Virus record (IMG/VR): IMGVR_UViG_3300046003_002393
Span: 1 to 52,235 of that record
Source: a virus
DNA: 52,235 bases
Direction: 5' to 3' (one strand)
A program made the position numbers and the translations under genes. Under the pieces are notes generated by a model. That model had not been told where the DNA came from. It saw only the letters and a program-made list of their open reading frames with translations, and made no database searches. Below, one piece after another: positions 6,326 to 46,893 of this stretch (positions are counted from its first letter, which is position 1; every line of letters starts with the position of its first letter).

Positions 6326-9300
6326 ATGGGGAATCTCGACGATGCAATCCTTGACGAAATCATCGCTCAACGCGGTTCAGGAGTACCTCCCCAAAGTATC
6401 CCAGGGACTTTAGCTCCTTCACCCCCTGCAAGCGCACAGAGGGCGAATCCCGACGATGCAATTCTTGACGAGATCATCGCTCAACGCGACCCCAACGCCG
6501 CGACTGCGGCGAGAGTACAGCAAGCCCTGGGCGACGCGGAAGGCAAGAAGCCCGAAGACGAAGCGCGACGCGCTCAACTTGCGGAGCAGCTAGGCACTGT
6601 ACCCGGCTTGCTACCCTCTATCCCCGAAGCCGAAGCGGAACTCAGGCGTAAGCAACTTCCGACACAAGCGGCAGACCTTGCGGCCAACTCTCCGAAGACA
6701 GCCAATTGGTCTTTGGTTCCGGGGCACACGGCCAGAGCAGGAACATTGGGACTCACGGCTCTCGCTAAGTTAGAGGAGTCGTTCCCCTCCATTGGATACC
6801 CGGCAACAAAACTTCGATCGGGTCTCGCTTCAGCCTCCGCAGGTACCGCAAAGTTAATCGACGATCTTGCGTCGTCCATATACAACCACGTTTACGGGGG
6901 GTACGAAGACCTGAAGGCCAAGCACAGAGCCGATGCGGGGATACCTAAACTGAACCCTCACGACACCTTCATGGGCCGCCTAGCCAAGAGTGAGCAAGAT
7001 AGAAGCGAATCCCTCGCAGCGCGTGCGGATATTATTGATCCTAGCCACAAAGACAAGAAGTACGCTGTCGGATGGAGTGACGAAAACGCGGCGTATAAAG
7101 ACCCGATGAAGATGTTCGGAGACGCTCTTCAATCCCTGCCGAGTACCGCCTTACTAATCGCTGCGAGCGTTGCGTCTAGGGGCGCGGCGGTGGAAGCGCG
7201 TCTTACAAGTTTAGCTGAAAGTGCCGCAGCGGGTATCGCTGAAAGCGTAGCAGCGGCAACCGCGACCAAAGCAGCGATTGCCGCTGCATCGAAGACTATG
7301 GCGATCTTCCAAGGCATAGGTGAGGGGGTTCTGTCCTACGCCCAAAACTCACTATCTACCACCTCTGAGGTGGAGAAGATGGCCTATGACAAGATCGCGA
7401 GCAGCCCGACACTTCAGAAGTACATCAAGATGGGTTACGGGCCTGACGTAGCGCAAGAACTAACTGCGCGTGAAGCCGGGCAGCAATCGGGTATCAGAGG
7501 CGGAGCCTTGACGGGGTTGATAGCCTTCATAGGCGGAAAGTTCACAGGTAAGTTTATCGGTGAAGGTGGCGCTTTCCTCCCCCGTTTTGGTAAGGGGGCG
7601 ATCAACGAAGCCCTTGTGGAAGCCCCCCAAGGTGGCCAAGAACAATGGCAGACCAACCTCGCTATCCGCGAGCACGCGGATAAGACACGCCAACCGGGTG
7701 AAGGAGTGCTTGAGGCTACGGTACAAGGGGCGGTATTAGGACCGATAATAGGTGGCCCGATTGCGGGTTTTGCGGGTAAACACACCCAAGCACAACAAGC
7801 TGTAACTGACCGCGATACACTAAACAAACTTGCGCTTGACGCAGCGGGTAATCCTGTTCGCGAACACTCTCCCAAACCGTACCGAGACTTCATCGACTCT
7901 CTGACAGAGGGGAGACCGGTGCGAGAAGTATTCATCGACACGAATATCCTCCGCGATGTGTTCGCACAAGCAGGAGTAACTGAGAGGGAGTTGACCACAG
8001 TATTCCCCGAGGTCGCCGCGCAGTTAGCCGATGAAGCCAACACCGAAGGGTTTGTCAGTATCAAGACTTCCGACTTGATCACAGGGATTAAGACCCCTGA
8101 GATTCTAAAGTCGGTGCTGGATAACGCTCGGGTTCAGACCGATGGTGAGATGGGTATGACCTTCGCGGAAGCTGAGGCGTTCTTTCAGACTCAGAACGAA
8201 GGCTTAACCCGTGCTCAAGTTAAGGCCGCTGAAGTGCAAGCCGCCGCGAAGCAACACGCTCAAGATATCGCAGAAATCCGCCAAACGATTACCGATGAGC
8301 TAGTCGCGACAGGACGATACGATAGGACCATAGCGGCGACGAATGCGGTGCCCATCACGGCGTTCTACGAACAACGCGCTAGGGACTTCAACGCTGGCCG
8401 CGCTAAGGAGGACTTCACAACAGCGAAGCAGTTGTTTGAACAGTATCCGTATAAGGCGCAGGGTGAAGCGAGTAAATCCATCGGAGAAAACTTCGCGCAG
8501 ACGTCGAGGCTGGAAGACTTCTCCGACCCGAATACCTTCTATCGGGTGATTCGCGGAGATAAAGCATTCCAAGATATTCTTGATACCGGCACGGTCAGAA
8601 CAGACTCTACTAAAAAGACTGGACTAGATAGGCCAACCCTGTTCCCATCGTTCTCTAAAGGTGGCGTGTCAGAGTCCTATGCTGAAGGTGAAGATAACCA
8701 CTACGTTATTACTTCCACCGATTCTTCTATTCAACCCTCCAAGAAGGGCAGACACGGAAAAGGCACCACGATGTTCCCGACTGATCTGGCGGGAAATCAT
8801 CTACCAAGCATAGAAGGCAGTAAAGTCAACGTGTATAAGCACACTGGCAAGGGCAACTATGAATTGGTGTACTCCAACGGAAAGCAAGTTACCCAAGGCG
8901 GTGAGAAGGGTTCGTTCAATCAAGGAGGCGCAGCCACCCCTAGTATCCCAGAACAGTTCTACAGCCAGCTACGCAAAGTATTCCGCGATGCGCCTGAAAA
9001 GATATTCACCGGCGGTGCACAGGTCAAGGCTTGGCTGGCCTCTAATCATGGCAAGTTGGGTATCAAGAAAGAAGAGATATTCTGGTCAGGGATAAACGAG
9101 TACCTTGATATTACAGGCAAGGTAAGCAAGGCGGATGTGCTGGCGTTCCTTGACGGTAACGGGGCTAAGGTTGAAGTGAAGATGCTTGGTAAAGAGCCAA
9201 CTAATGCGGCCGAATTCAAAAAACGAGAAGATGAATTAGATGACCTGCGTGACCGAGGGGGGCGTATATCCCATGATGAGTGGCGACGACGCATGACCGA

Positions 9301-12300
9301 GTTACAAAAAGAGTTTGGCTATGATGAAAACGGTAAACCTTTAGACAAAACAAAATTCGCCCAATACCAACTCCCCGGCGGGACTAACTACAGGGAAATG
9401 CTGATTACGTTGCCTTCAAAGAAGGTTCAGCAGGTTGATGTTATGGGGCGGGAGGAACTATCCGCGTGGTACGAAAAAGAAGTCGGATATAGCCCTATTG
9501 AAGAAGACCCGCAAATATCCACAGATGCGTTGCGCGAATTGGTGCGAGCATACGATGCTGAAAATGGTGCGCAGACATCCCCAACGGTCACGTCAGATTT
9601 CAGGTCATCCCACTTCGACCAACCCAACATAGCCGCCCACATCCGCATGAATGACAGGGTAGGCGCGAATGGCGAGAAGATATTATTTATTGAGGAAGTG
9701 CAGTCAGATTGGGGGCAGAAGGGGAAGAAGGAAGGGTTCTCAAAGGTTGCTGATAAGTCAGAGTTGGACGCCATGAAGGAAGAAATGGCCGCGCTCAACA
9801 GAAGGGCAATTAGTGGGCCAAACTTAAATCAAGCAGAGTACGCACGCCTTGATGAACTTATCCGTCTGACTAAAGCAGGGGTATCCTCAACAGCTAACAC
9901 ACCCGGCGTACCATCCGCCCCTTTCGTAACCGACACAAAAGCATGGGCAAGCCTAGCCATGAAGCACGTCATCCAGCAAGCCGTAGAAGGTGGCTATGAC
10001 TCCGTGGCGTGGACGAATGGCGAGCAACAGTTTGATCGCTGGGGCAGTGAAGAAATAGCATGGGTCAAAGAGGGTAAAGGATGGCGTGTTTCAGCTAAAG
10101 AACAGGTTGGAGGTAACGCTGGCGGGGTTGATCTTGAAGGGGCTGCTAGGGCGCGAGGAATACTTAACGAGGAGACTGGCAAGGTTGTCACATCAAAAGA
10201 GCAGCTTCGTTCAATCGTAGCTACTGTGTTAGCGCGTGAGAACAATGATACGGCGATAGATAAAATAGCTGATCGTACATGGGAGCGTATGCAGTCCGAG
10301 GATGCTGGTACTACCATGCCGAGGCGAGAAGGAATGAAAGGCTACTACGATGCCATCCTGCCCCAAGTAGTAAGCGGCATATTCAAGCAGTTGAAGGTTG
10401 AGGGGAAGGTTGAGAGTGTTGAAGTTAGGGGCGGCTACGCCCGTGACAGTAGCGGTATACCTTCACGGTATAAAGAGCTTACTGAGCAACCAGCCTTCAC
10501 CATCACCCCAGAACTAGCAGCCAAAGTCACAAACGAAGGAATGCCTTTCTTCCAAGCTAACAACGCTGAGTTCAATCCTGCAACGCTGATGTCCACGTTC
10601 TATGCGGGTGCGAATCTGTCCAGCATTATTCACGAATCGGGACACTTCTATCTGGAGATGATGGAGCGCCTGGCCAACCGCCCAGACGCGCCTCAGAAGA
10701 TCAAGGATGACTTCAACCTGTACATGGAGTGGTTCGGGATAGCCCCCGAACAATGGGCGGGTATGGATAACGCGGCGCGTACTCCGTATCACGAACAATT
10801 CGCACTGTCTCAGGAGTTGTGGATGATAGAGGGCAAGTCGCCTACGTTGAATCCGAAGATGGAATCCGCCTTCGCTCGTTTCAGGCAGTGGATGTTGAGC
10901 GTCTACACATCGGCGGCGGAGTTCCTTCGGCAACACCCCTCGGCTGGAAAGCTGAACGATGAAGTGCGGGCCGCGTTCAGTCGTCTGATCGCCAGCGAAG
11001 AAGCGATTCGCGAAGCTGAAGTGGTGAGGGGTTACGTTCCCTTGTTCCAGACCGCTGCGGAGGCTGGCGTATCACAAGAAGCGTTCGACGAATACATGAA
11101 CCTTCGTGAGGAGTTCATCCAGAAGGCGATAAGCACCGCACAGAAGCGTTCCATGCGCGATCTGAAGTGGTTGTCGAACGCGCAGAGTGGTGCGTTGAAG
11201 AAGATTCAAGATCAGGCAGAGGGGTTAAGGTCAACGATCCGTGAGGAGGTAGCAGCGGAGGTGATGGCCGAACCGATCAACCGCGCAAGGCAAGCCATGC
11301 TTAACGGTGAAGTTAAAATGAACATCGAGGAGTTAGGTGCGATGGTCAATAGTCCAGCCGTAGCAGGGATGGTGGCTAAAGACGGGATGCCTTTGGATGT
11401 GGTGGCCGCGCAGTTCGGTTTCCCTTCTTCAGAGGCACTCCTTCAAGAGCTTGCCCATGCGGAGAATGCTCAAGAAAAGATCGCAGGATTGACCGATCAG
11501 CGCATGTTGCAGGAGCACGGCGATATGGTCGATGCGCGTGCTATCGAGAAAGCGATGTACGCTGCGGTGCAGAACGAGGCACTTACCCGCTTTCTGGCCA
11601 CCGGCTTGAAATTACTCTCCAAGTCGAGCCTACCGATCAGTCAGATCACGAAAGCGGCGAAGCTGAAGGCGCAAGAAACAATCTCCAAGATACCACTGAA
11701 TAAGTTACGCCCCGCATACTACGAAGCGGCGGAACGTAAAGCCCTCGCTACCGCCCTAGAGAACGCGGGGAAAGACCCCGCCAGAGCGATAGCGGCGCAA
11801 CAGGCGGCGATACTGAACCGTCAGCTTCACAAAGCGGCTACAGAGACTCAGGAGAGGATTCAGGCTGACGTCGCACGGCTGAAGCGAATCACTAAACCCG
11901 CAGCGCAAAAAGCGATGGGTGGAGAACACATACTGCAACTCAACGCGCTGATAGACCGCTTTGGTATCCGTAGCAAGAACACCCTACTTACTGAGGGCAC
12001 ACCGCGCAAGTCTCTTGCGGAATACGCCGCGACGGAACAGCTTCGCACTTTGAACGCCTACCTGGAGGGAGAAGCGAAGCGCCTCTCCGCGATCGCGCTC
12101 AACGTCCCGAGTTGGATTGCTGACGGTAGCATATCGCAGGACTACAACTCGCTGACAGTAGCGCAGTTCGACGAGTTGATGGATTCGGTGAAAGCGATAG
12201 AGCTACTCGCTAGGCGCGAGCGCGAACAGTACGCCGCTTTTCGCGGGGCAACTTTCGCAGAAGCGAAGGCGAAGAACCTTGCGGTATTCAGGAAGAATTT

Positions 12301-14356
12301 CCCCAAGCTATTCCTCCCGAACGGTCAACTAAAGCCAACCGTGACAGACCCACGGCATAGCGTTGCAAATTCTTTAGGCGACACTTCGGATGCCGTACAA
12401 GCTGCGCTCTCAAGTTCGGAAGCGATAGTGAGTATCCTCGAAGGTGGAAAAGTCGGAGACTTGTTCTACTCCTTGATATGGCCGATGAGTTCACGGAACG
12501 ACTGGAAAGTTGCTCGGATGGAGGAGATATTCAAGGCGGTGCAACCTCTGCTCGACCAGTACAATCCGCTTGAACAAATAGCGTTCACACGCAAAGATAT
12601 CGGTACAGAGGCGCTTGGATTCGTAATGACCCGCGAGGCGGCTCTCACTGTCACGCTTTATCATGGCAGTGAAACGGGTCAGGATAGACTGAGCAATCAC
12701 ACGCTCACCAACGGTAAGCGATTGGATGTCGCTACGCAGCAGAAAGTCATCGACTTATTGGATGCGCGGGATATTAAGTTGGCAAACGGTTTGTGGGCGG
12801 TGTTCGATAAAACTCTGTGGCCTGAGCTAAAGGCGCTGGATGAACGGACTAAAGGCAAGGGCGCTCCGAAGGTTGAAGCAATGTCTCACAAGGCAAAGAA
12901 CGGAGACCTCACCGGCGGGTACTATGAGATTAAGTACGACACGGAAGAGAGCGCGACCCCTGGGAATGAAGCCAGCGCGGTAGCTGAGATGATGTCGGGA
13001 CAAGCCAGTGGGAGAAGGGTCTCCACGGCTCAAGGAACCAGCATTGCGCGGGAGGAGCACACCAAGTACCGTCCTCGCTTGGATTTGGGCGTGTTCTTCG
13101 AGACCGTCAACAAGGTGGTGAACGATCTGGCGTACCGTGAAGTTGTGGCCGACACCCAACGCATGTTGCTCGACCCGGACATAGAGACGGTGATCAAGAC
13201 TGCGGGATCGAAAGTGGAGTACCAAACCTTGCAGCACCGCGTTGGCGCGATGGTTATGGGAGCGCAACTCCCCTCAGGGCCTTTCGAGAAGGCGGCGGAT
13301 TTAGCAAGAAAAAATACTTCCGTTGTGCTTCTCTCAGGGATATGGACAGGATTGCAGAACTACACGAACTTGAGCGCGGTAGCCGATGAACTAGGCACTG
13401 CGAACGTCGCGTGGGAAACTCTCAGGATGCACAGTCCGATGGCCATATCCGCGTTTCGCTTTGGCATGAAGAACTCTGTCTTCTTGCGCAACTATCATCT
13501 TAGCTTCGACCGTACCGTGCAGGAGAACAGCAAGAAGCTGACATCGAAGCAGAAGTTCATGCCCAACATGTCCACATGGTTGTGGTTCATGGGTAAGATT
13601 AACCAGATCGTAGCTTCGATAACATGGAACGCCGCGTACAAGAAGGGGATGGCTCTAAACCAGAACGACCATAACGTGTCGGTCATCTACGCCGATAACA
13701 GGACGAGAAAACTTGTTGGGTCTGGGCGCGATGCTGATGTCACCAAGATCGCAGAGGGACACTGGCTTCCGTTGTTGAACATGATGTACAGCTTCTTCAA
13801 CTCACAGTTAATGATACTGATGGAGAAGTCAACACTGCTCAAGCGCACACTGAAGAGCGATGAGGAGACAGCGGCGTTCAAAGCCAAAGCCGTTGCGCTA
13901 TACGCGAAGTCATGGCTTATGATCGTGGCTATCCCTGCGATACTGGGGGACATGGCCTTGGGCGCGTTCAGGGGCGATCCAGATAAGGACGACGAAGATA
14001 AGTTGACTCACTACTTGAAAGCGATTGGGCTGTATAACATCTCATTCATTCCAGGTGGAGGCTCGGTCGGGGCTTTCCTATACCGTAAAGGTCTTGACAT
14101 GGACTCTTACGGACTCAAGATTTCCCCCGTCGAGGCGGCTATCACAGGAGTCGCTGCGGGGGCTGGCTCCGCAGTAGACATCTGGAACGATGAGGGCGAC
14201 ATCAAGGATGTGGGCAACGAGATAATGGCGTTGAGCTATATGCTCGGCCTTCCAGGGAGCTTCGTCAAGAATGCCGTTGTTGGAGGGTACGCCTACGCTA
14301 ATGAGCAAGCGGGACCAGAAGCACTACTCTTCGGGCCGCCGAAGGTTCCGAGGTGA
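6326..14356 (+). CDS. Giant polyvalent internal virion protein (2676 aa) with HESGH metallopeptidase-like motif
   Basis: ATG 6326 directly follows the previous stop (TAGATG). The N-terminus carries a duplicated motif, DDAILDEIIAQR, at about residues 5-16 and 43-54. Residues 270-500 include several Ala/Gly-rich hydrophobic segments (ALLIAASVASRG, GAVLGPIIGGPIAGFAG) that could cross a membrane. Residues about 735-870 (FYRVIRG, STDSSI, NVYKH) have a weak ADP-ribosyltransferase-like look. Residues about 1000-1410 (LPGGTNYREML, HIRMNDR, FIEEVQSDWGQKG) match a module widespread in phage large polyvalent proteins. At about residue 1434 IIHESGHFYLEMM is an HExxH zinc-peptidase-like site. The C-terminal 350 residues hold further amphipathic and hydrophobic helices (WLMIVAIPAILGDMALGAF). 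By position it replaces T7 gp16 as the large ejected core protein and probably carries effector domains into the host; enzymatic roles are inference. Confidence 0.75.
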   Translation: MGNLDDAILDEIIAQRGSGVPPQSIPGTLAPSPPASAQRANPDDAILDEIIAQRDPNAATAARVQQALGDAEGKKPEDEARRAQLAEQLGTVPGLLPSIPEAEAELRRKQLPTQAADLAANSPKTANWSLVPGHTARAGTLGLTALAKLEESFPSIGYPATKLRSGLASASAGTAKLIDDLASSIYNHVYGGYEDLKAKHRADAGIPKLNPHDTFMGRLAKSEQDRSESLAARADIIDPSHKDKKYAVGWSDENAAYKDPMKMFGDALQSLPSTALLIAASVASRGAAVEARLTSLAESAAAGIAESVAAATATKAAIAAASKTMAIFQGIGEGVLSYAQNSLSTTSEVEKMAYDKIASSPTLQKYIKMGYGPDVAQELTAREAGQQSGIRGGALTGLIAFIGGKFTGKFIGEGGAFLPRFGKGAINEALVEAPQGGQEQWQTNLAIREHADKTRQPGEGVLEATVQGAVLGPIIGGPIAGFAGKHTQAQQAVTDRDTLNKLALDAAGNPVREHSPKPYRDFIDSLTEGRPVREVFIDTNILRDVFAQAGVTERELTTVFPEVAAQLADEANTEGFVSIKTSDLITGIKTPEILKSVLDNARVQTDGEMGMTFAEAEAFFQTQNEGLTRAQVKAAEVQAAAKQHAQDIAEIRQTITDELVATGRYDRTIAATNAVPITAFYEQRARDFNAGRAKEDFTTAKQLFEQYPYKAQGEASKSIGENFAQTSRLEDFSDPNTFYRVIRGDKAFQDILDTGTVRTDSTKKTGLDRPTLFPSFSKGGVSESYAEGEDNHYVITSTDSSIQPSKKGRHGKGTTMFPTDLAGNHLPSIEGSKVNVYKHTGKGNYELVYSNGKQVTQGGEKGSFNQGGAATPSIPEQFYSQLRKVFRDAPEKIFTGGAQVKAWLASNHGKLGIKKEEIFWSGINEYLDITGKVSKADVLAFLDGNGAKVEVKMLGKEPTNAAEFKKREDELDDLRDRGGRISHDEWRRRMTELQKEFGYDENGKPLDKTKFAQYQLPGGTNYREMLITLPSKKVQQVDVMGREELSAWYEKEVGYSPIEEDPQISTDALRELVRAYDAENGAQTSPTVTSDFRSSHFDQPNIAAHIRMNDRVGANGEKILFIEEVQSDWGQKGKKEGFSKVADKSELDAMKEEMAALNRRAISGPNLNQAEYARLDELIRLTKAGVSSTANTPGVPSAPFVTDTKAWASLAMKHVIQQAVEGGYDSVAWTNGEQQFDRWGSEEIAWVKEGKGWRVSAKEQVGGNAGGVDLEGAARARGILNEETGKVVTSKEQLRSIVATVLARENNDTAIDKIADRTWERMQSEDAGTTMPRREGMKGYYDAILPQVVSGIFKQLKVEGKVESVEVRGGYARDSSGIPSRYKELTEQPAFTITPELAAKVTNEGMPFFQANNAEFNPATLMSTFYAGANLSSIIHESGHFYLEMMERLANRPDAPQKIKDDFNLYMEWFGIAPEQWAGMDNAARTPYHEQFALSQELWMIEGKSPTLNPKMESAFARFRQWMLSVYTSAAEFLRQHPSAGKLNDEVRAAFSRLIASEEAIREAEVVRGYVPLFQTAAEAGVSQEAFDEYMNLREEFIQKAISTAQKRSMRDLKWLSNAQSGALKKIQDQAEGLRSTIREEVAAEVMAEPINRARQAMLNGEVKMNIEELGAMVNSPAVAGMVAKDGMPLDVVAAQFGFPSSEALLQELAHAENAQEKIAGLTDQRMLQEHGDMVDARAIEKAMYAAVQNEALTRFLATGLKLLSKSSLPISQITKAAKLKAQETISKIPLNKLRPAYYEAAERKALATALENAGKDPARAIAAQQAAILNRQLHKAATETQERIQADVARLKRITKPAAQKAMGGEHILQLNALIDRFGIRSKNTLLTEGTPRKSLAEYAATEQLRTLNAYLEGEAKRLSAIALNVPSWIADGSISQDYNSLTVAQFDELMDSVKAIELLARREREQYAAFRGATFAEAKAKNLAVFRKNFPKLFLPNGQLKPTVTDPRHSVANSLGDTSDAVQAALSSSEAIVSILEGGKVGDLFYSLIWPMSSRNDWKVARMEEIFKAVQPLLDQYNPLEQIAFTRKDIGTEALGFVMTREAALTVTLYHGSETGQDRLSNHTLTNGKRLDVATQQKVIDLLDARDIKLANGLWAVFDKTLWPELKALDERTKGKGAPKVEAMSHKAKNGDLTGGYYEIKYDTEESATPGNEASAVAEMMSGQASGRRVSTAQGTSIAREEHTKYRPRLDLGVFFETVNKVVNDLAYREVVADTQRMLLDPDIETVIKTAGSKVEYQTLQHRVGAMVMGAQLPSGPFEKAADLARKNTSVVLLSGIWTGLQNYTNLSAVADELGTANVAWETLRMHSPMAISAFRFGMKNSVFLRNYHLSFDRTVQENSKKLTSKQKFMPNMSTWLWFMGKINQIVASITWNAAYKKGMALNQNDHNVSVIYADNRTRKLVGSGRDADVTKIAEGHWLPLLNMMYSFFNSQLMILMEKSTLLKRTLKSDEETAAFKAKAVALYAKSWLMIVAIPAILGDMALGAFRGDPDKDDEDKLTHYLKAIGLYNISFIPGGGSVGAFLYRKGLDMDSYGLKISPVEAAITGVAAGAGSAVDIWNDEGDIKDVGNEIMALSYMLGLPGSFVKNAVVGGYAYANEQAGPEALLFGPPKVPR

Positions 14357-41462: not shown

Positions 41463-43106
41463 ATGATAGTCCGTCGTATCCCGTGGACTAGCCAGCCTCA
41501 GATAGCGGTTCCGATAGATTCATCGAACACGCTGTTTGACGTGTCTAAGATAACTGCTGTCGTCAATCCTGGGTTTGGAACGTACAAGAGGGACGCTCGA
41601 ACAGGTAAGTTATATACTGTATCTACCAACCCCGCCCAAGCGATGAATGCTTTAGGTAAGGGTATTAGATGGGTAGGAGGTACTAATGACTATATACAAT
41701 TAGATGCTGACGCAGATAATGTATTAGATACTGTTAGCTGTTCTATGCTGATAGCTACTGTCAGGAATGCTACTAATAATGGTAATGATATATCTTATGG
41801 ATATGAAGATGGAGGTACTGGTAATAGAGTTCAAGCACACTTTCCTCTAGATACTACTGCTACTATATATTGGGATTTTGGTAATGGTACTGGTGGTGTT
41901 GGTGGAGGTAGAGTTACTGCAAATCCTGGGGCTGCTACATGGGCTATTGGAAGAATTAATATATGGGGTTTTTATGCTGGTAGTAGAGGTAGAGAAATAT
42001 GGTTAAATGGAAGGTTAATAGCGTCTGATATAACAGCTACTAAAATACGTAGTGCTACTACTCAAGGATTTAGAATAGGAAGTGGTGCATCTAATTCTAG
42101 CAGCGCATCTGCACCTTATCACTCTGATAATCTATTTGTATTATCTAAAGAAGGTTGGAGCCAAGCTGCTTTTGCAGGATTAACTGCTAATCCTTGGCGG
42201 ATATTTGAGCCTAAACAGGTTACAGTCTTCGCGGCACCTTACCCCCCAACGGTCATAGGCCTTACCGCCCCGACTCTCGGACTCACCCCCCAAGATATCG
42301 CGCAAACGAGGACGCAAAATCTCACCGCCGCTGCGCTTACTTTAACACCGAACAGTGTAACCGCGCTATGGACTATCCGCCCCGCGACTGCAGATTTCGC
42401 CTTTAACCGAGAAGTTTTCCAGATCGCATCAGCGAATAACTTAGGGGTTTCGACTTGTGACTTCACGGCTTTAGAGATAAGTGCTCAATCGGTAGCATCA
42501 CTAGGCACTGCTGCGATGGACTTCGTAGCCAACGACGTGCAGTTAGCGATTACCAATAACCTAGATGTTGGCAACTTAATCCTCGCCGGTCAGGATACTC
42601 AGCAAGTCGCCAGCACGACATTGGGCACCGCGACGATGGACTTCGTGGGTAAAAACATCACTGAGATACAGGTTGTTGCTCTTGGTTCTGCCGCGCTGAA
42701 CTTTACCGCGCAGACTTCCAACCCAGTCGCGGTAGTTACGCTCTCTACCGCTGCGATGAATATGGTTGTGCTCGATATCAGACCGGAGAACTCACCGCTT
42801 GGAACGGTGCAGGTGATGACGATATCCGCGATGGACTTCGCGGTTAACCCTATCAGCAACACTGCCAGCACGACGCTCTCCGCTGCGGCGATGAACGATG
42901 TGGCTTACGAATTGCACCTCGTATCGAGCAACGTGCTTACCGCGCCTACGTTTGATCTAGCGCCTCAACCGCTGACCGTTACCCAAGCCGCCGTAGTAGT
43001 GGCACTTGTTCCCGCGACGTTCGACTTCGTACCGGGCGCGATACAAGCGGCAGGCACGTCATCGGTGGGCGACAGACGACGCATTATGATGGGAGTGGGC
43101 AAGTAA
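41463..43106 (+). CDS. Lectin-like adhesin / fibre protein with an AT-rich laminin-G-like module
   Basis: 547 residues, ATG 41463. Residues about 45-255 form a concanavalin/laminin-G-like domain (TNDYIQLDADADNVLDTVSC, WAIGRINIWGFYAGSRGREI, LNGRLI, DNLFVLSKEGWSQAAFAGL, then NPWRIFEP), encoded by DNA at 41600-42205 that is visibly AT-rich with T/A-ending codons, unlike its flanks. Residues about 265-535 are seven or eight approximately 28-residue repeats of the type LGTAAMDFV/LSTAAMNMV. Probably a surface receptor-binding protein. The stop overlaps the large terminase start. Confidence 0.72.
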   Translation: MIVRRIPWTSQPQIAVPIDSSNTLFDVSKITAVVNPGFGTYKRDARTGKLYTVSTNPAQAMNALGKGIRWVGGTNDYIQLDADADNVLDTVSCSMLIATVRNATNNGNDISYGYEDGGTGNRVQAHFPLDTTATIYWDFGNGTGGVGGGRVTANPGAATWAIGRINIWGFYAGSRGREIWLNGRLIASDITATKIRSATTQGFRIGSGASNSSSASAPYHSDNLFVLSKEGWSQAAFAGLTANPWRIFEPKQVTVFAAPYPPTVIGLTAPTLGLTPQDIAQTRTQNLTAAALTLTPNSVTALWTIRPATADFAFNREVFQIASANNLGVSTCDFTALEISAQSVASLGTAAMDFVANDVQLAITNNLDVGNLILAGQDTQQVASTTLGTATMDFVGKNITEIQVVALGSAALNFTAQTSNPVAVVTLSTAAMNMVVLDIRPENSPLGTVQVMTISAMDFAVNPISNTASTTLSAAAMNDVAYELHLVSSNVLTAPTFDLAPQPLTVTQAAVVVALVPATFDFVPGAIQAAGTSSVGDRRRIMMGVGK

Positions 43107-45679
43107 TGCGTGTTGAGGACATGCTGAAGATACTAGCCCAAACACCGGGAGGGGGTCGCGATGAAGTATCGCGACTCGCGCTTGAGGCTACCGCACATAT
43201 GAAGTGGGTTCCGAACCCCGGGCCGCAAACCGAGGCTTACTTTTCACCGGCTGACGAGATATTTTTCGGTGGGCAAGCAGGCGGGGGAAAATCGGATTTA
43301 GAAATCGGACTCGCTATTAACGAACACGATCGGTCACTGCTCCTCCGCAGAACGAATAAAGAAGCCGATGGGCTGGCCGACCGTATGACCGAGATTCTCG
43401 GCAACCGCGATGGGTACAACTCCCAGAAGGGAACATGGAGGATACCGCACAATGGAAACATCGTGGAGATCGGTGGGTGCCAGCTAGAAACGGATAAGCA
43501 ACGGTATAAGGGGAACCCGCATAGTTTGATCTGTGTGGGTAGAGAAACGCCAGTGCTTATGGCAGATGGGTCTTATAAGGCAATCTCCGCTATAAACGTA
43601 GGGGAGTCGGTGACTACACTTGAAGGCCCCCGGCGGGTACTGAAATCTTTCCCCGTCGCGGCAAAACCTTCGGTGGAGTTGCGCGTTCAACTACCGTGCG
43701 GAGCCGTTCATCGCCAGGTGCAATCGACGACCCATAAAGTTCTTTCGCATAAGGAGTGGGTTGCCCCCGGTACACAAGGCGTTTCCCGTGGCCACCTGTC
43801 GGCCCTTGCTTCCAAGCAATGTCATACTCAGCGAGTACCACGCGCCAAACGATCATCCCTACTTGGGTTAGTCGAGCGAGCTCTCTGTACGACAAGTCGG
43901 TTGGGGCGAAGTACCTTGCCACCTCTGCAAGTTGGTTACGTGTCGTCGGGCAAGAAGGGTCAATTGGACGGGTGCGCATATAAGGCGCGAGAACTTCATC
44001 AAAGTGTAGTCGTAAGGTCTGGTGCGCGACGCCTAAATGCTTGGCAGCAGCTTTTATGTTGCCTGTCGTCTTCAACGCTTCTGAGACAATCGAGGAGGTT
44101 AAATGCACCCTCTTTCCATCGTTCATCTTCTTGGCATGATAACTACGATGCGCTGAAAAAGTCATTACTTCTAAGTTCTCAGGTCTGTTATCAGTCCTTA
44201 TCTCATTTTTGTGGTGAACACATTCCTTCTCTGAGGACTTCGTACTCCACACCAAAGGGCGCCCTATCATATCCTCTCCCACAAGACGGTGTTGGAATAC
44301 CCAACCCCACATATTCGCCTCGCGATGAAAAGGATGGAATTCTAAAACGTAACCACCCATCAAGCACGTATGTCCACCCTTATACGAAGGAAATACGTCA
44401 AACGGAGTGCGTGCTTTCTTTAGCTTCATGGTCAGCGGTTCCTATAGGCGATATTGAGTTGTTCGACATCGAGGTTGAAGAAGTAAACCATTTTATCACA
44501 AAAGGCGGGATAGTCAATAAGAACTGTTTCGATGAAGTGAGCGATTTCACCGAATCGCAATACGTTTTTATCAATGCGTGGAACCGCTCCGCGAACCCCA
44601 AACAGCGGTGCCGTATCGTCGCTGCAGGGAACCCCCCGACACGTCCTGAAGGTCTGTGGGTTGTGCGCCGATGGGCAGCATGGCTCGATCCGAAGTACGC
44701 GAATCCCGCTAGTCCGGGAGAGTTACGCTGGTACACCACGGGCGAAGACGGTAAGGAAATCGAGGTCGACGGGATAGGTCCACACCGTATCTATGGCGAA
44801 CAGGTGTTCGCAAGGTCGCGCACCTTCATCCCCTCCCAGTTATCCGACAATCCCGATCTCTCAGCCACGAACTACGCGGCGTCCTTAGCGGGTCTGCCGG
44901 AAGAACTACGGCTAGCTTACCGCGATGGCGACTTCAGTGTGGGTCTCCGCGATGAGCCGTGGCAGATAATCCCCTCGGCATGGGTTGTGGAAGCCCAAGC
45001 CCGTTGGACGAAGAATCCCCCCTACGGCGTGCCGATGTGCTGTATCGGAGTGGACGTAGCGCAAGGAGGTAACGATAACACCGTGCTCGCGATACGACAT
45101 GATGGTTGGTTCGCTCCGTTGATCGTTGTCCCCGGAGCCGAGACCAAGGATGGCCCAAGCGTGGCGGGTAAGGTAGTAGCGAACCGCCGGGACGAGTGCC
45201 GCGTTGTGGTTGACATCGGCGGCGGGTGGGGTGGTGAAGCCTATGCACACATGAAGGCCAACGGCATAGACGCGGTGGGCTACATGGGCATCAAGGCGTC
45301 CACGAGGCGCACGCGGGACAGGCAGTTGGCGTTCACCAATGTCCGTACCGAAGCGTACTGGCGGTTCCGTGAAGCCCTCGATCCTGCTCAACCTGGCGGG
45401 TCGAACATCAAGCTCCCGAGCGACCCCGAGGTGGTATCCGATCTCTGCGCGGCGATGTACGAAGTGACCTCACGGGGCATCAAGCTGGAAAGCAAAGAAG
45501 ATGTCTGCAAGAAGTTAAGCCGATCACCCGATAAAGGCGATGCTATTGTCATGGCGTGGTGGGACGGGTATAAGGTAGAACAGCTTCAAGACGGGGATTG
45601 GAAGGGAGTTAAAGGTGGTAGAATGACTCCTAAAGTGATTATGGGACGTGCAGCGGCGCGAGCGAACAAGAGAAGATGA
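43106..45679 (+). CDS. terL: Terminase large subunit precursor interrupted by an intein
   Basis: 857 residues, ATG 43106. Walker A GGQAGGGKS at residues 55-63; Walker B aspartates in CFDEVSDF. Between SLI (residue 142) and CFDE (residue 474) lies an intein of 331 residues (Cys143 to Asn473). Excision gives SLICFDEVSDF and a 526-residue terminase, the usual size. The C-terminal RNase H-type nuclease shows CCIGVDVAQGGNDNTVLAIR, then VVVDIGGGWGGEAYAHM and SPDKGDAIVMAWW acidic residues. It powers DNA packaging and cuts concatemers. Splicing is inferred from conserved intein motifs; the gene is non-functional without it. Confidence 0.93.
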   Translation: MRVEDMLKILAQTPGGGRDEVSRLALEATAHMKWVPNPGPQTEAYFSPADEIFFGGQAGGGKSDLEIGLAINEHDRSLLLRRTNKEADGLADRMTEILGNRDGYNSQKGTWRIPHNGNIVEIGGCQLETDKQRYKGNPHSLICVGRETPVLMADGSYKAISAINVGESVTTLEGPRRVLKSFPVAAKPSVELRVQLPCGAVHRQVQSTTHKVLSHKEWVAPGTQGVSRGHLSALASKQCHTQRVPRAKRSSLLGLVERALCTTSRLGRSTLPPLQVGYVSSGKKGQLDGCAYKARELHQSVVVRSGARRLNAWQQLLCCLSSSTLLRQSRRLNAPSFHRSSSWHDNYDALKKSLLLSSQVCYQSLSHFCGEHIPSLRTSYSTPKGALSYPLPQDGVGIPNPTYSPRDEKDGILKRNHPSSTYVHPYTKEIRQTECVLSLASWSAVPIGDIELFDIEVEEVNHFITKGGIVNKNCFDEVSDFTESQYVFINAWNRSANPKQRCRIVAAGNPPTRPEGLWVVRRWAAWLDPKYANPASPGELRWYTTGEDGKEIEVDGIGPHRIYGEQVFARSRTFIPSQLSDNPDLSATNYAASLAGLPEELRLAYRDGDFSVGLRDEPWQIIPSAWVVEAQARWTKNPPYGVPMCCIGVDVAQGGNDNTVLAIRHDGWFAPLIVVPGAETKDGPSVAGKVVANRRDECRVVVDIGGGWGGEAYAHMKANGIDAVGYMGIKASTRRTRDRQLAFTNVRTEAYWRFREALDPAQPGGSNIKLPSDPEVVSDLCAAMYEVTSRGIKLESKEDVCKKLSRSPDKGDAIVMAWWDGYKVEQLQDGDWKGVKGGRMTPKVIMGRAAARANKRR
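43532..44524 (+). mobile_element. Intein in the large terminase, at the Walker B strand
   Basis: 331 codons. Block A starts at Cys1: CVGRETPVLMADGSYKAISA. Block B is QSTTHKVLSHKEWV with the expected Thr-x-x-His-type site. Blocks F/G are ELFDIEVEEVNHFITKGGIV then NKN, with terminal Asn and downstream +1 Cys (codon 44525). The penultimate residue is Lys instead of the usual His (NKN-C), a known but less common variant that may slow splicing. The middle (about residues 85-290 of the intein) matches no sense-strand family; it is the antisense strand of an HNH endonuclease gene (43614-44429). Confidence 0.92.
43614..44429 (-). CDS. HNH endonuclease encoded antisense inside the terminase intein
   Basis: 271 residues on the opposite strand, ATG 44429, stop at 43614-43616, wholly within the intein. 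The HNH_3-type core is clear: GWVFQHRLVGEDMIGRPLVW, KECVHHKNEIRTDNRPENLE then VMTFSAHRSYH. Downstream are two helix-turn-helix-like segments (NIKAAAKHLGVAHQTLRLHF and DLSYRELARLTQVGMIVW) as in homing endonucleases. Its C-terminal 60 residues overlap the conserved N-terminal splicing blocks and are probably dispensable. AGGA 10 bases upstream of the ATG is a weak ribosome-binding site; a leftward promoter within the terminase is not evident. Confidence 0.88.
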   Translation of the reverse strand: MKLKKARTPFDVFPSYKGGHTCLMGGYVLEFHPFHREANMWGWVFQHRLVGEDMIGRPLVWSTKSSEKECVHHKNEIRTDNRPENLEVMTFSAHRSYHAKKMNDGKRVHLTSSIVSEALKTTGNIKAAAKHLGVAHQTLRLHFDEVLAPYMRTRPIDPSCPTTRNQLAEVARYFAPTDLSYRELARLTQVGMIVWRVVLAEYDIAWKQGPTGGHGKRLVYRGQPTPYAKELYGSSIAPGDERLRTVVERATPPKVLPRRGKISVPAGGLQV

Positions 45680-46389: not shown

Positions 46390-46893
46390 ATGCCAGTAAT
46401 AAAAGTCCCGATACCTGCCAATTCAGTTATCCGTTCAGTTATCAACTCGGGGGTCTTCGCAGGTAAGAGGCGGGGAGTTTTGCCTTCTCCGGATTCTGCC
46501 AATTCAGTTATCAATTCAGTTATCAACTCGGGGTTCTTCGCAGGTAAGAGACTGGGAGTTTTGCCTTCTCAGGATTCTGCCCCCGCGACCATACTTGACC
46601 CAAGTGACCCGACTCTTGGCAGTACCTATGCTGATGGCGTGGAGCGTGCCAGTAGGGTTAAGAAAAAGAAACAGATAGCCGCAGGTGTGGGCGACGCAGG
46701 AGGCGAGGGCGACGCAGGAGGCGAGGGCGACGCTCGCTCGATACTTGAGGAACTTAAGTCGATGCTTATGGGGGCGCCTCAGGGACTCGTGACCCCAGAG
46801 GAGTTAGAGATGTCCCCAGAGGAGTTAGAGATGCGGCGCAAAAAACGTGCCGTGCAGTCAAGTTTGCCGAACCGCACCATATTGGGGGGTTAG
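46390..46893 (+). CDS. Hypothetical protein with duplicated 27-residue unit
   Basis: 167 residues, ATG 46390 two bases after the previous stop. The 27-residue unit ANSVIRSVINSGVFAGKRRG plus VLPSPDS is duplicated in tandem (residues 10-36 and 37-63). Further short repeats follow: GDAGGEGDAGGEGD and EELEMSPEELEM. The C-terminal KKRAVQSSLPNRTILGG resembles the preceding protein's GRASTIL tail, suggesting an old duplication. Precedes the portal gene by zero bases. Confidence 0.65.
   Translation: MPVIKVPIPANSVIRSVINSGVFAGKRRGVLPSPDSANSVINSVINSGFFAGKRLGVLPSQDSAPATILDPSDPTLGSTYADGVERASRVKKKKQIAAGVGDAGGEGDAGGEGDARSILEELKSMLMGAPQGLVTPEELEMSPEELEMRRKKRAVQSSLPNRTILGG
46417..46578 (+). repeat. 81-bp tandem duplication
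   Basis: Two near-identical 81-bp units (46417-46497 and 46498-46578) inside the gene at 46390; about 90% identical at DNA level by eye. The in-frame length (27 codons) shows selection to keep the gene open. Confidence 0.92.

Follow-up and report, generated by a model that had tools for sequence, protein, structure and literature searches.

The 52,235-base viral contig analysed here in its entirety (IMG/VR record IMGVR_UViG_3300046003_002393, hereafter the window) carries a phage structural module which, according to profile searches, includes the large terminase subunit (TerL), a head-tail adaptor and a major head protein. The TerL gene is interrupted within its Walker B strand, and the interrupting element is very probably a mobile intein whose homing endonuclease, an HNH protein, is encoded as a separate antisense gene in the central loop of the intein, with some 800 bases being read as two proteins in opposite directions. 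The features of the locus, in window coordinates, are as follows.

43106..45679, plus strand: TerL precursor open reading frame (ORF), 857 amino acids (N-extein, intein and C-extein); PHROG 979 and PHROG 2 matches, intein-free orthologues in L006, L007, L009 and L010
43106..43531, plus strand: N-extein, the TerL ATPase part, ending ...PHSLI in the Walker B strand, from alignment to the L007 and L006 empty sites
43532..44524, plus strand: intein, 331 amino acids, C1...N331 followed by +1 Cys; exact insertion relative to L007
43532..43771, plus strand: N-terminal splicing (Hint) domain, residues 1-80
43532-43555, plus strand: block A, within the N-terminal Hint domain
43721-43744, plus strand: block B (QSTTHKVL), within the N-terminal Hint domain
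43778..44350, plus strand: sense linker, residues 83-273, stop-free and predicted to be disordered
44351..44524, plus strand: C-terminal splicing domain, residues 274-331, with invariant residues in the alignment of relatives
44369-44392, plus strand: conserved HPYT strand, within the C-terminal splicing domain
44459-44482, plus strand: block F, within the C-terminal splicing domain
ending at 44524, plus strand: block G (...VNKN), within the C-terminal splicing domain
44525..45676, plus strand: C-extein, first residues CFDE, from comparison with relatives
43614..44429, minus strand: HNH endonuclease gene, 271 amino acids plus stop, ATG at 44429
44136..44225, minus strand: predicted HNH catalytic core (ECVHHKNEIRTDNRPENLE ... 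SAHRSYH)
44102-44001, minus strand: helix-turn-helix 1, HNH protein residues 110-143; helix-turn-helix profiles in 15 of 24 relatives, helices in the model
43895-43836, minus strand: helix-turn-helix 2, HNH protein residues 179-198; same support as helix-turn-helix 1
44490..44517, minus strand: candidate promoter-like site TTGACT-16-TAAAAT with TG, in blocks F/G, at the same place in most Walker B-site relatives
44440..44443, minus strand: weak Shine-Dalgarno-like AGGA, 10 nucleotides ahead of the HNH ATG

The identification of the 857-residue ORF as TerL is given by profile search (PHROG 979, E=1.9e-22; PHROG 2, E=2e-20), and its residues 143-473 (43532-44524) form an exact in-frame insertion at the Walker B strand, a conserved motif at which orthologues exist without it. 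The empty site reads ...HSLICFDELSDF... in L007, a relative that is 86% identical, and ...HSLIAFDEVSDF... in L006, with no insert in either, and the Walker B sites of L009 and L010 are likewise intein-free; across the insertion site L007 has NPHSLICFDELSDF and L006 has NPHSLIAFDEVSDF, as against NPHSLI/C...NKN/CFDEVSDF in the window, where the slashes mark the ends of the insert.

Judged by its insertion, its terminal residues and its fold, the insert is an intein, which is presumably removed by protein splicing. It has the terminal residues of a class 1 intein (C1, N331 and a +1 Cys), and C1 and N331 are invariant in an alignment of 21 relatives, together with T6, G13, G24, L30, H68, D312 and H320. 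The NCBIfam model intein_Cterm scores 17.3 bits on the whole ORF against a cut-off of 15.6, the sense ORF partially matches the model of the intein-containing Rv2578c (6e-8), and Pfam Hom_end_hint matches the sense frame at 1.7e-4, which is under its cut-off; the intein_Cterm match lies at the C-terminal end of the insert, and matches to Hint models at the N-terminal end are weak. When AlphaFold2 is supplied with the alignment of relatives, the predicted local distance difference test (pLDDT) score is around 90 for residues 1-80, mostly 80-94 for residues 274-331 and below 50 for nearly all of residues 83-273, and in the model both halves of the intein have the Hint fold; in Foldseek the model comes closest to gp41-1 (2.8e-4) and MchDnaB-1 (7.1e-4), with PI-SceI and further inteins next in rank. 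The middle of the sense intein matches no endonuclease in Pfam, PHROGs or NCBIfam, the sense frames of the 21 relatives contain no Pfam domain besides Hint, and the sole library match in the linker is a weak, sub-cut-off RHS_core match obtained with the isolated intein; a degenerate sense-strand endonuclease was accordingly rejected for want of a profile match.

The endonuclease is found instead on the complementary strand. The antisense ORF matches Pfam HNH_3 (3e-7, 30.4 bits, cut-off 24.8) and PHROG 7545 (E=1.6e-15), its AlphaFold2 model has a mean pLDDT of 82.5, and H72, H73, N81, N85 and H94 are invariant among 24 HNH sequences, so that the HNH motif is present and the protein is a putative nuclease. 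A Foldseek search of the whole model against the PDB gave nothing significant (I-HmuI appeared only at E 0.78), and a PDB sequence search found no HNH. By codon log-odds trained on the other genes of the window, the HNH frame is favoured between about 43700 and 44392, and the sense frame in the exteins and in the splicing domains. A sequence-only reading of this DNA had claimed that plus-strand splicing blocks interrupt the Walker B strand between SLI and CFDE, that the interior lacks a sense-strand endonuclease and that the complementary strand encodes a 271-residue protein with an HNH_3 core and helix-turn-helix segments; the exact empty sites and the Hint fold, the lack of any LAGLIDADG or HNH match in the sense frame, and the HNH and helix-turn-helix profile matches bear out all three claims. 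Two further observations concern the HNH protein itself. Ahead of its core (44206-44250, minus strand) lies an insert of 6-7 residues, the VWSTKSS region, which is common to the close intein-resident relatives and not to free-standing ones, and its conserved N-terminal YKGG/YKDA lies opposite the sense HPY (intein residues 282-284), which is invariant in the alignment of 21 relatives, so the same bases are conserved on both strands.

The arrangement is not unique to this phage but is a widespread class. A catalogue of cases, entry to which required an open sense frame, contains the window and 66 further IMG/VR contigs, most of them with the intein at the TerL Walker B site; six have it at the TerL Walker A site (L030, L041, L043, L080, L087 and L099) and one, L053, at the P-loop of an SF2-type helicase, and one further spanning ORF, L133, has a different phase and no evident intein. 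Of the 80 loci retrieved with the family alignment, 62 (two being copies of the window) have the HNH gene antisense inside an intein-bearing gene, which amounts to 60 of the 78 non-window matches in an intein loop. A scan with the HNH alignment led to L029, a diverged TerL which also has an intein at the Walker B site and whose antisense HNH is 35% identical over residues 10-243. Among cultured phages, direct inspection showed the same antisense arrangement in the Pectobacterium phages Taid and Koroua; the whole gene is 91-100% identical in the phages Pappous, Amona, Sabo, Ymer and Abuela and in Dickeya phage Setonix, and none of the 72 further records that resemble the Taid terminase extends over the insert. 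In the annotated cultured Pectobacterium records the terminase is labelled a hypothetical protein and the HNH gene is not annotated. A direct tblastn search of the sense intein against cultured phages (E 0.01) gave no match, because only the short splicing blocks are conserved, and two scans of genome contigs found three free-standing HNH genes and no antisense-intein case. Two loci in the class are more elaborate: L085 (1820-5443) has two inteins in a single TerL gene, of which the P-loop one shows LAGLIDADG-like motifs in the sense frame (by eye) and the Walker B one has an antisense HNH, and L135 (1327-1566, on the same contig as L206 2277-2834) is a TerL with an antisense-HNH intein and a second, weak HNH match (E 1.8e-7) in another same-strand frame of the C-extein region. 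Aphanizomenon phage CL131 was rejected as a lead, its intein being a sense LAGLIDADG-like one at a different site, the P-loop.

All 67 cases and Taid share a single antisense phase in which HNH codon position 1 is opposite sense position 1, and HNH position 3 therefore faces sense position 2. When the HNH gene of the window is redrawn synonymously, the sense frame is open in 0 of 20,000 redraws, with a mean of 9.3 stops; across the HNH genes of the catalogue such redraws yield about 8 sense stops per locus on average and a 0.25% chance of an open frame, and the real loci have none. Phe followed by Ile, Met, Thr, Asn or Lys is absent from 16,200 residues of intein-resident HNH proteins, against 86 expected, because each such dipeptide always makes a sense stop in the shared phase, while other HNH proteins have 35 against 33 expected; the deficit, being forced by the open sense frame, thus measures how far the HNH protein has had to change.

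The substitution pattern reverses where the two genes overlap. Among 23 unique related inteins of equal length, the mean pairwise differences at sense positions 1, 2 and 3 are.20,.12 and.49 in the N-terminal domain,.14,.28 and.11 in the overlap and.06,.03 and.30 in the C-terminal domain, the fastest-changing position thus passing from sense position 3 in the splicing domains to HNH position 3 in the overlap. Two independent pairs from the Walker A site behave in the same way, with overlap differences by position of 5, 16 and 7 (Taid/Koroua) and 7, 37 and 7 (L080/L087) and a position-3 excess outside. For near pairs over codons 90-285, classified with an assumed transition weight of 2, changes that are nonsynonymous in the sense frame and synonymous in the HNH frame number 188 against 67.9 expected, those altering the HNH protein only 26 against 69.8, and those altering both proteins 67 against 120, with 1 sense stop against 13.8 expected and 2 HNH stops against 12.2. 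Over codons 45-90, the stretch that block B shares with the HNH tail, 2 changes altering both proteins were observed against 17.4 expected, and this zone is real dual coding. The HNH gene is, from these counts, under purifying selection, and what is required of the sense linker is chiefly the absence of stops, with no sequence of its own except in short doubly constrained zones near the splicing domains. The earlier claim that one segment has to satisfy two genes holds, with this qualification on the linker. Since the catalogue required an open frame, the sense N-terminal domain was also searched alone, in a scan without that requirement: it found 33 loci, of which 31 are full-length inteins, all with an intact antisense HNH (two are cut by contig ends), and the remaining 2 are short weak matches. 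The sequence-only reading had named two observations that would refute it, a LAGLIDADG or HNH match in the sense-strand middle of the intein and relatives with a conserved sense intein and a broken antisense frame; the profile searches gave no such match, and there are no such relatives among these 31.

The intein also appears to travel. In 47 locus pairs, which are non-independent but come from several lineages, the inteins have more than 93% nucleotide identity (93-98%) while the C-exteins are 71-83% identical; near-identical inteins in diverged terminases indicate horizontal mobility, and together with the empty sites this gap in identity is what a homing endonuclease in a mobile host element would produce. 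Antisense expression of the HNH gene would be possible from a sigma70-like site (44517-44490) 61 bases ahead of its ATG. The site recurs in Walker B relatives because codons for N-H-Y/F-I read TATAAT-like on the opposite strand, and the promoter scores are higher than when the same peptides are recoded synonymously (mean z 0.77, standard error 0.17, 42 loci; P=0.01 for the window).

These elements suggest the following mechanism. On the sense strand all 993 bp would be translated within the terminase precursor, and the Hint halves (residues 1-80 and 274-331) would fold around a disordered linker of about 190 residues, excise themselves and restore TerL. On the other strand a promoter, probably located in the block F/G codons, would drive an endonuclease of 271 amino acids with an HNH domain and a double helix-turn-helix, whose ATG sits just within the C-terminal splicing domain. 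Terminase genes that lack the intein would be cut at their Walker B site by this enzyme, and the intein would be copied into them during repair. Since the wobble bases of the HNH gene are the second positions of the sense codons, synonymous substitutions would remain open to the HNH gene, and the sense linker would be free to drift provided that no stop arises.

Several points weigh against this reading. Splicing, antisense transcription and cleavage of empty sites by this particular HNH enzyme are steps that we infer from sequence. The open sense frame is part of the catalogue's own selection, though not of the sense-only scan, and the close copies of the window are identical to it, so that the selection tests rest on relatives. 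The penultimate intein residue is Lys rather than His, and block B has S-T-T-H rather than T-x-x-H, although H68 is present; because mycobacteriophage inteins are reported in which Gly, Lys or Ser takes the place of the penultimate His (PMC5050341), these departures were treated as variation of a known type which does not exclude an intein. On the expression side, chance alone would produce sigma70-like sites in this region (a mean of 1.9 per shuffle), relatedness among the 42 loci weakens the excess in promoter score, and the Shine-Dalgarno-like AGGA is weak and not conserved across the class.

Other explanations have to be measured against the same observations. The HNH could be a free-standing mobile nuclease that ended up by chance in a mini-intein loop and does not drive homing, but cuts elsewhere or has another phage function, for example in DNA packaging: phages also have free-standing relatives of this HNH family, the HNHs of Walker A inteins and those of Walker B inteins fall into distinct clades, and HNH proteins are known in phage packaging machines, as a passage of PMC12613952 cites. 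We regard this as unlikely, because a passenger would be lost or would occur at varied places and orientations, while the gene is intact in every full-length intein from the sense-only search, lies in the intein loop in most family matches and belongs to an intein that moves as a unit between diverged terminases. Far less probable still is an accident or artefact, whether an antisense ORF arising by chance opposite an ordinary intein or a misassembly. Long antisense ORFs are indeed common in GC-rich DNA, but full-length HNH homologues extend down to about 30% identity, and a chance ORF was rejected on the PHROG 7545 match, the redraws, the Phe-[IMTNK] depletion and the selection in the HNH frame. 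An assembly chimera was rejected because the window sequence recurs without a difference in two other IMG/VR contigs, in one over 11,152 bases that cover the entire intein and in the other over 6,480 bases that start within it.

It is also very improbable that the insert is removed at the RNA level, as a self-splicing intron with an antisense endonuclease gene, or that separately made halves join by trans-splicing as a split intein. The latter idea draws on the top structural match, gp41-1, which is known as a split intein of a fractured gene; the former draws on the antisense homing endonuclease genes known in nuclear group I introns (PMC9548176). However, there is no Rfam match at gathering thresholds anywhere in the window and no group I ribozyme core, on which grounds an RNA intron was rejected, and the Hint halves fold with high confidence. 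A split intein in a fractured gene was rejected since the window and each of its 66 catalogued relatives have a single open frame across the intein, and neither model needs that open frame or the strong avoidance of stops.

The origin of a mobile intein with an antisense endonuclease is less clear. Chance stops number 4.1, 4.6 and 3.6 per 100 codons for the three phases in a set of 90 other HNH genes; the shared phase is not that with the fewest, so the phase alone is not explained by base composition, and a single origin would explain why all cases share it. Resolution is poor in the HNH tree, which was built on 95 columns, and the free tree scatters the intein-resident HNHs, with the Walker A and helicase HNHs forming a clade (support 95.7), but constraining all intein-resident HNHs to one clade is not rejected (p-AU 0.74); a single origin is therefore possible but not shown. 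A fuller proposal, to which we give a little less than an even chance, is that these inteins are one old, widespread phage lineage of single origin, which has occupied several sites in one fixed antisense phase and in which the F/G codons double as the promoter of the antisense endonuclease. If this were true, splicing, promoter and nuclease would overlap in a selfish element of 1 kb, and the endonuclease would be expressed independently of transcription of the host gene.

Comparison with known systems shows what is particular to this one. Fractured genes with split inteins such as gp41, reportedly treated by Dassa and colleagues in 2009, have a separate endonuclease gene between the intein halves, and gp41-1 is the top structural match here; the host gene there is divided into two ORFs, whereas the sense frame here is unbroken, with the endonuclease gene overlapping it on the opposite strand. 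The nearest precedent is the ShiLan domain, or Pacc40 insertion, an out-of-frame HNH in phage DNA methylases (Arsenault, Gosselin and Gogarten 2025, PMC11855218), which is likewise an in-frame, stop-free insertion in a phage gene whose HNH product is read in another frame while the in-frame reading forms a loop, and whose sporadic distribution likewise suggests homing. Unlike the window element, in which Hint splicing domains flank an antisense gene, it has its HNH on the same strand, in the third frame, and no splicing domains, and its authors consider it neither an intein nor an intron. Terminase inteins with endonuclease activity are known at the Walker B site and elsewhere (PMC5050341), and these and other canonical endonuclease-containing inteins such as PI-SceI share with the present element the Hint domain and an endonuclease between blocks B and F, and the phage TerL examples also share insertion in the Walker A or B ATPase motif; the present element is not one of them because its endonuclease is not in frame, being a separate antisense gene opposite a sense loop predicted to be disordered. 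In the nuclear group I introns of Didymium (PMC9548176) a homing endonuclease gene also lies opposite its host element with its own expression signal (here a candidate one), but the system is eukaryotic, the enzyme is of the His-Cys box type and the host is a ribozyme intron in rDNA, so that, the intron being non-coding, there is no second protein-coding constraint. The sequence-only reading had known of no intein with this arrangement; the literature search found no described antisense endonuclease gene in an intein, with bioRxiv 10.1101/2025.01.02.630785 (on non-canonical intein architecture in actinobacteriophages) and Gorbalenya 1998 (PMC147447) lying outside it.

Hidden endonucleases of other kinds were seen along the way. 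Terminase inteins in L017 (1408-1881), L019 (2405-2887) and L020 (4222-4698) have a Recombination endonuclease VII gene in the same-strand +2 frame (Pfam, 8e-18 to 3e-17), at an insertion site (...Q/C...GETPVLMADG...SHN/TRW) different from those of the antisense-HNH inteins; the annotated intein of Mycobacterium phage Phlyer (L224) hides another around 1501-1893, and many cultured phages of Gordonia and Mycobacterium also have matches to this family in their terminase genes. With the antisense HNH, there are therefore at least two forms of endonuclease outside the sense frame in inteins. ShiLan-like same-strand, out-of-frame HNH genes lie inside DNA methylase genes in L068 (2809-3051), L074 (2962-3222) and L103 (2434-2706) and, outside the actinobacteriophages, in Cylindrospermopsis phage Cr-LKS3 (L185, 1998-2288). 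Elsewhere in the window, a 167-residue ORF (46390-46893) contains the internal near-duplicate SVI[RN]SVINSG[VF]FAGKR[RL]GVLPS, and a 2676-residue ORF (6326-14356) matches PHROG 9880 in its C-terminal half, with weaker matches to DarB-like antirestriction proteins and virion RNA polymerase.

The usual understanding of inteins is that the endonuclease forms a domain of the intein polypeptide itself. In the class described here splicing and homing would be two genes on opposite strands, and thus separately expressible and separately mutable, and surveys of inteins that consider the sense frame only would score such inteins as endonuclease-free. The class constitutes a natural overlapping-gene system with one frame pair, dozens of alleles, a forbidden dipeptide, Phe-[IMTNK], and free-standing HNH genes as controls, and it bears on how endonucleases invade mini-inteins and on the origin of fractured genes with split inteins.

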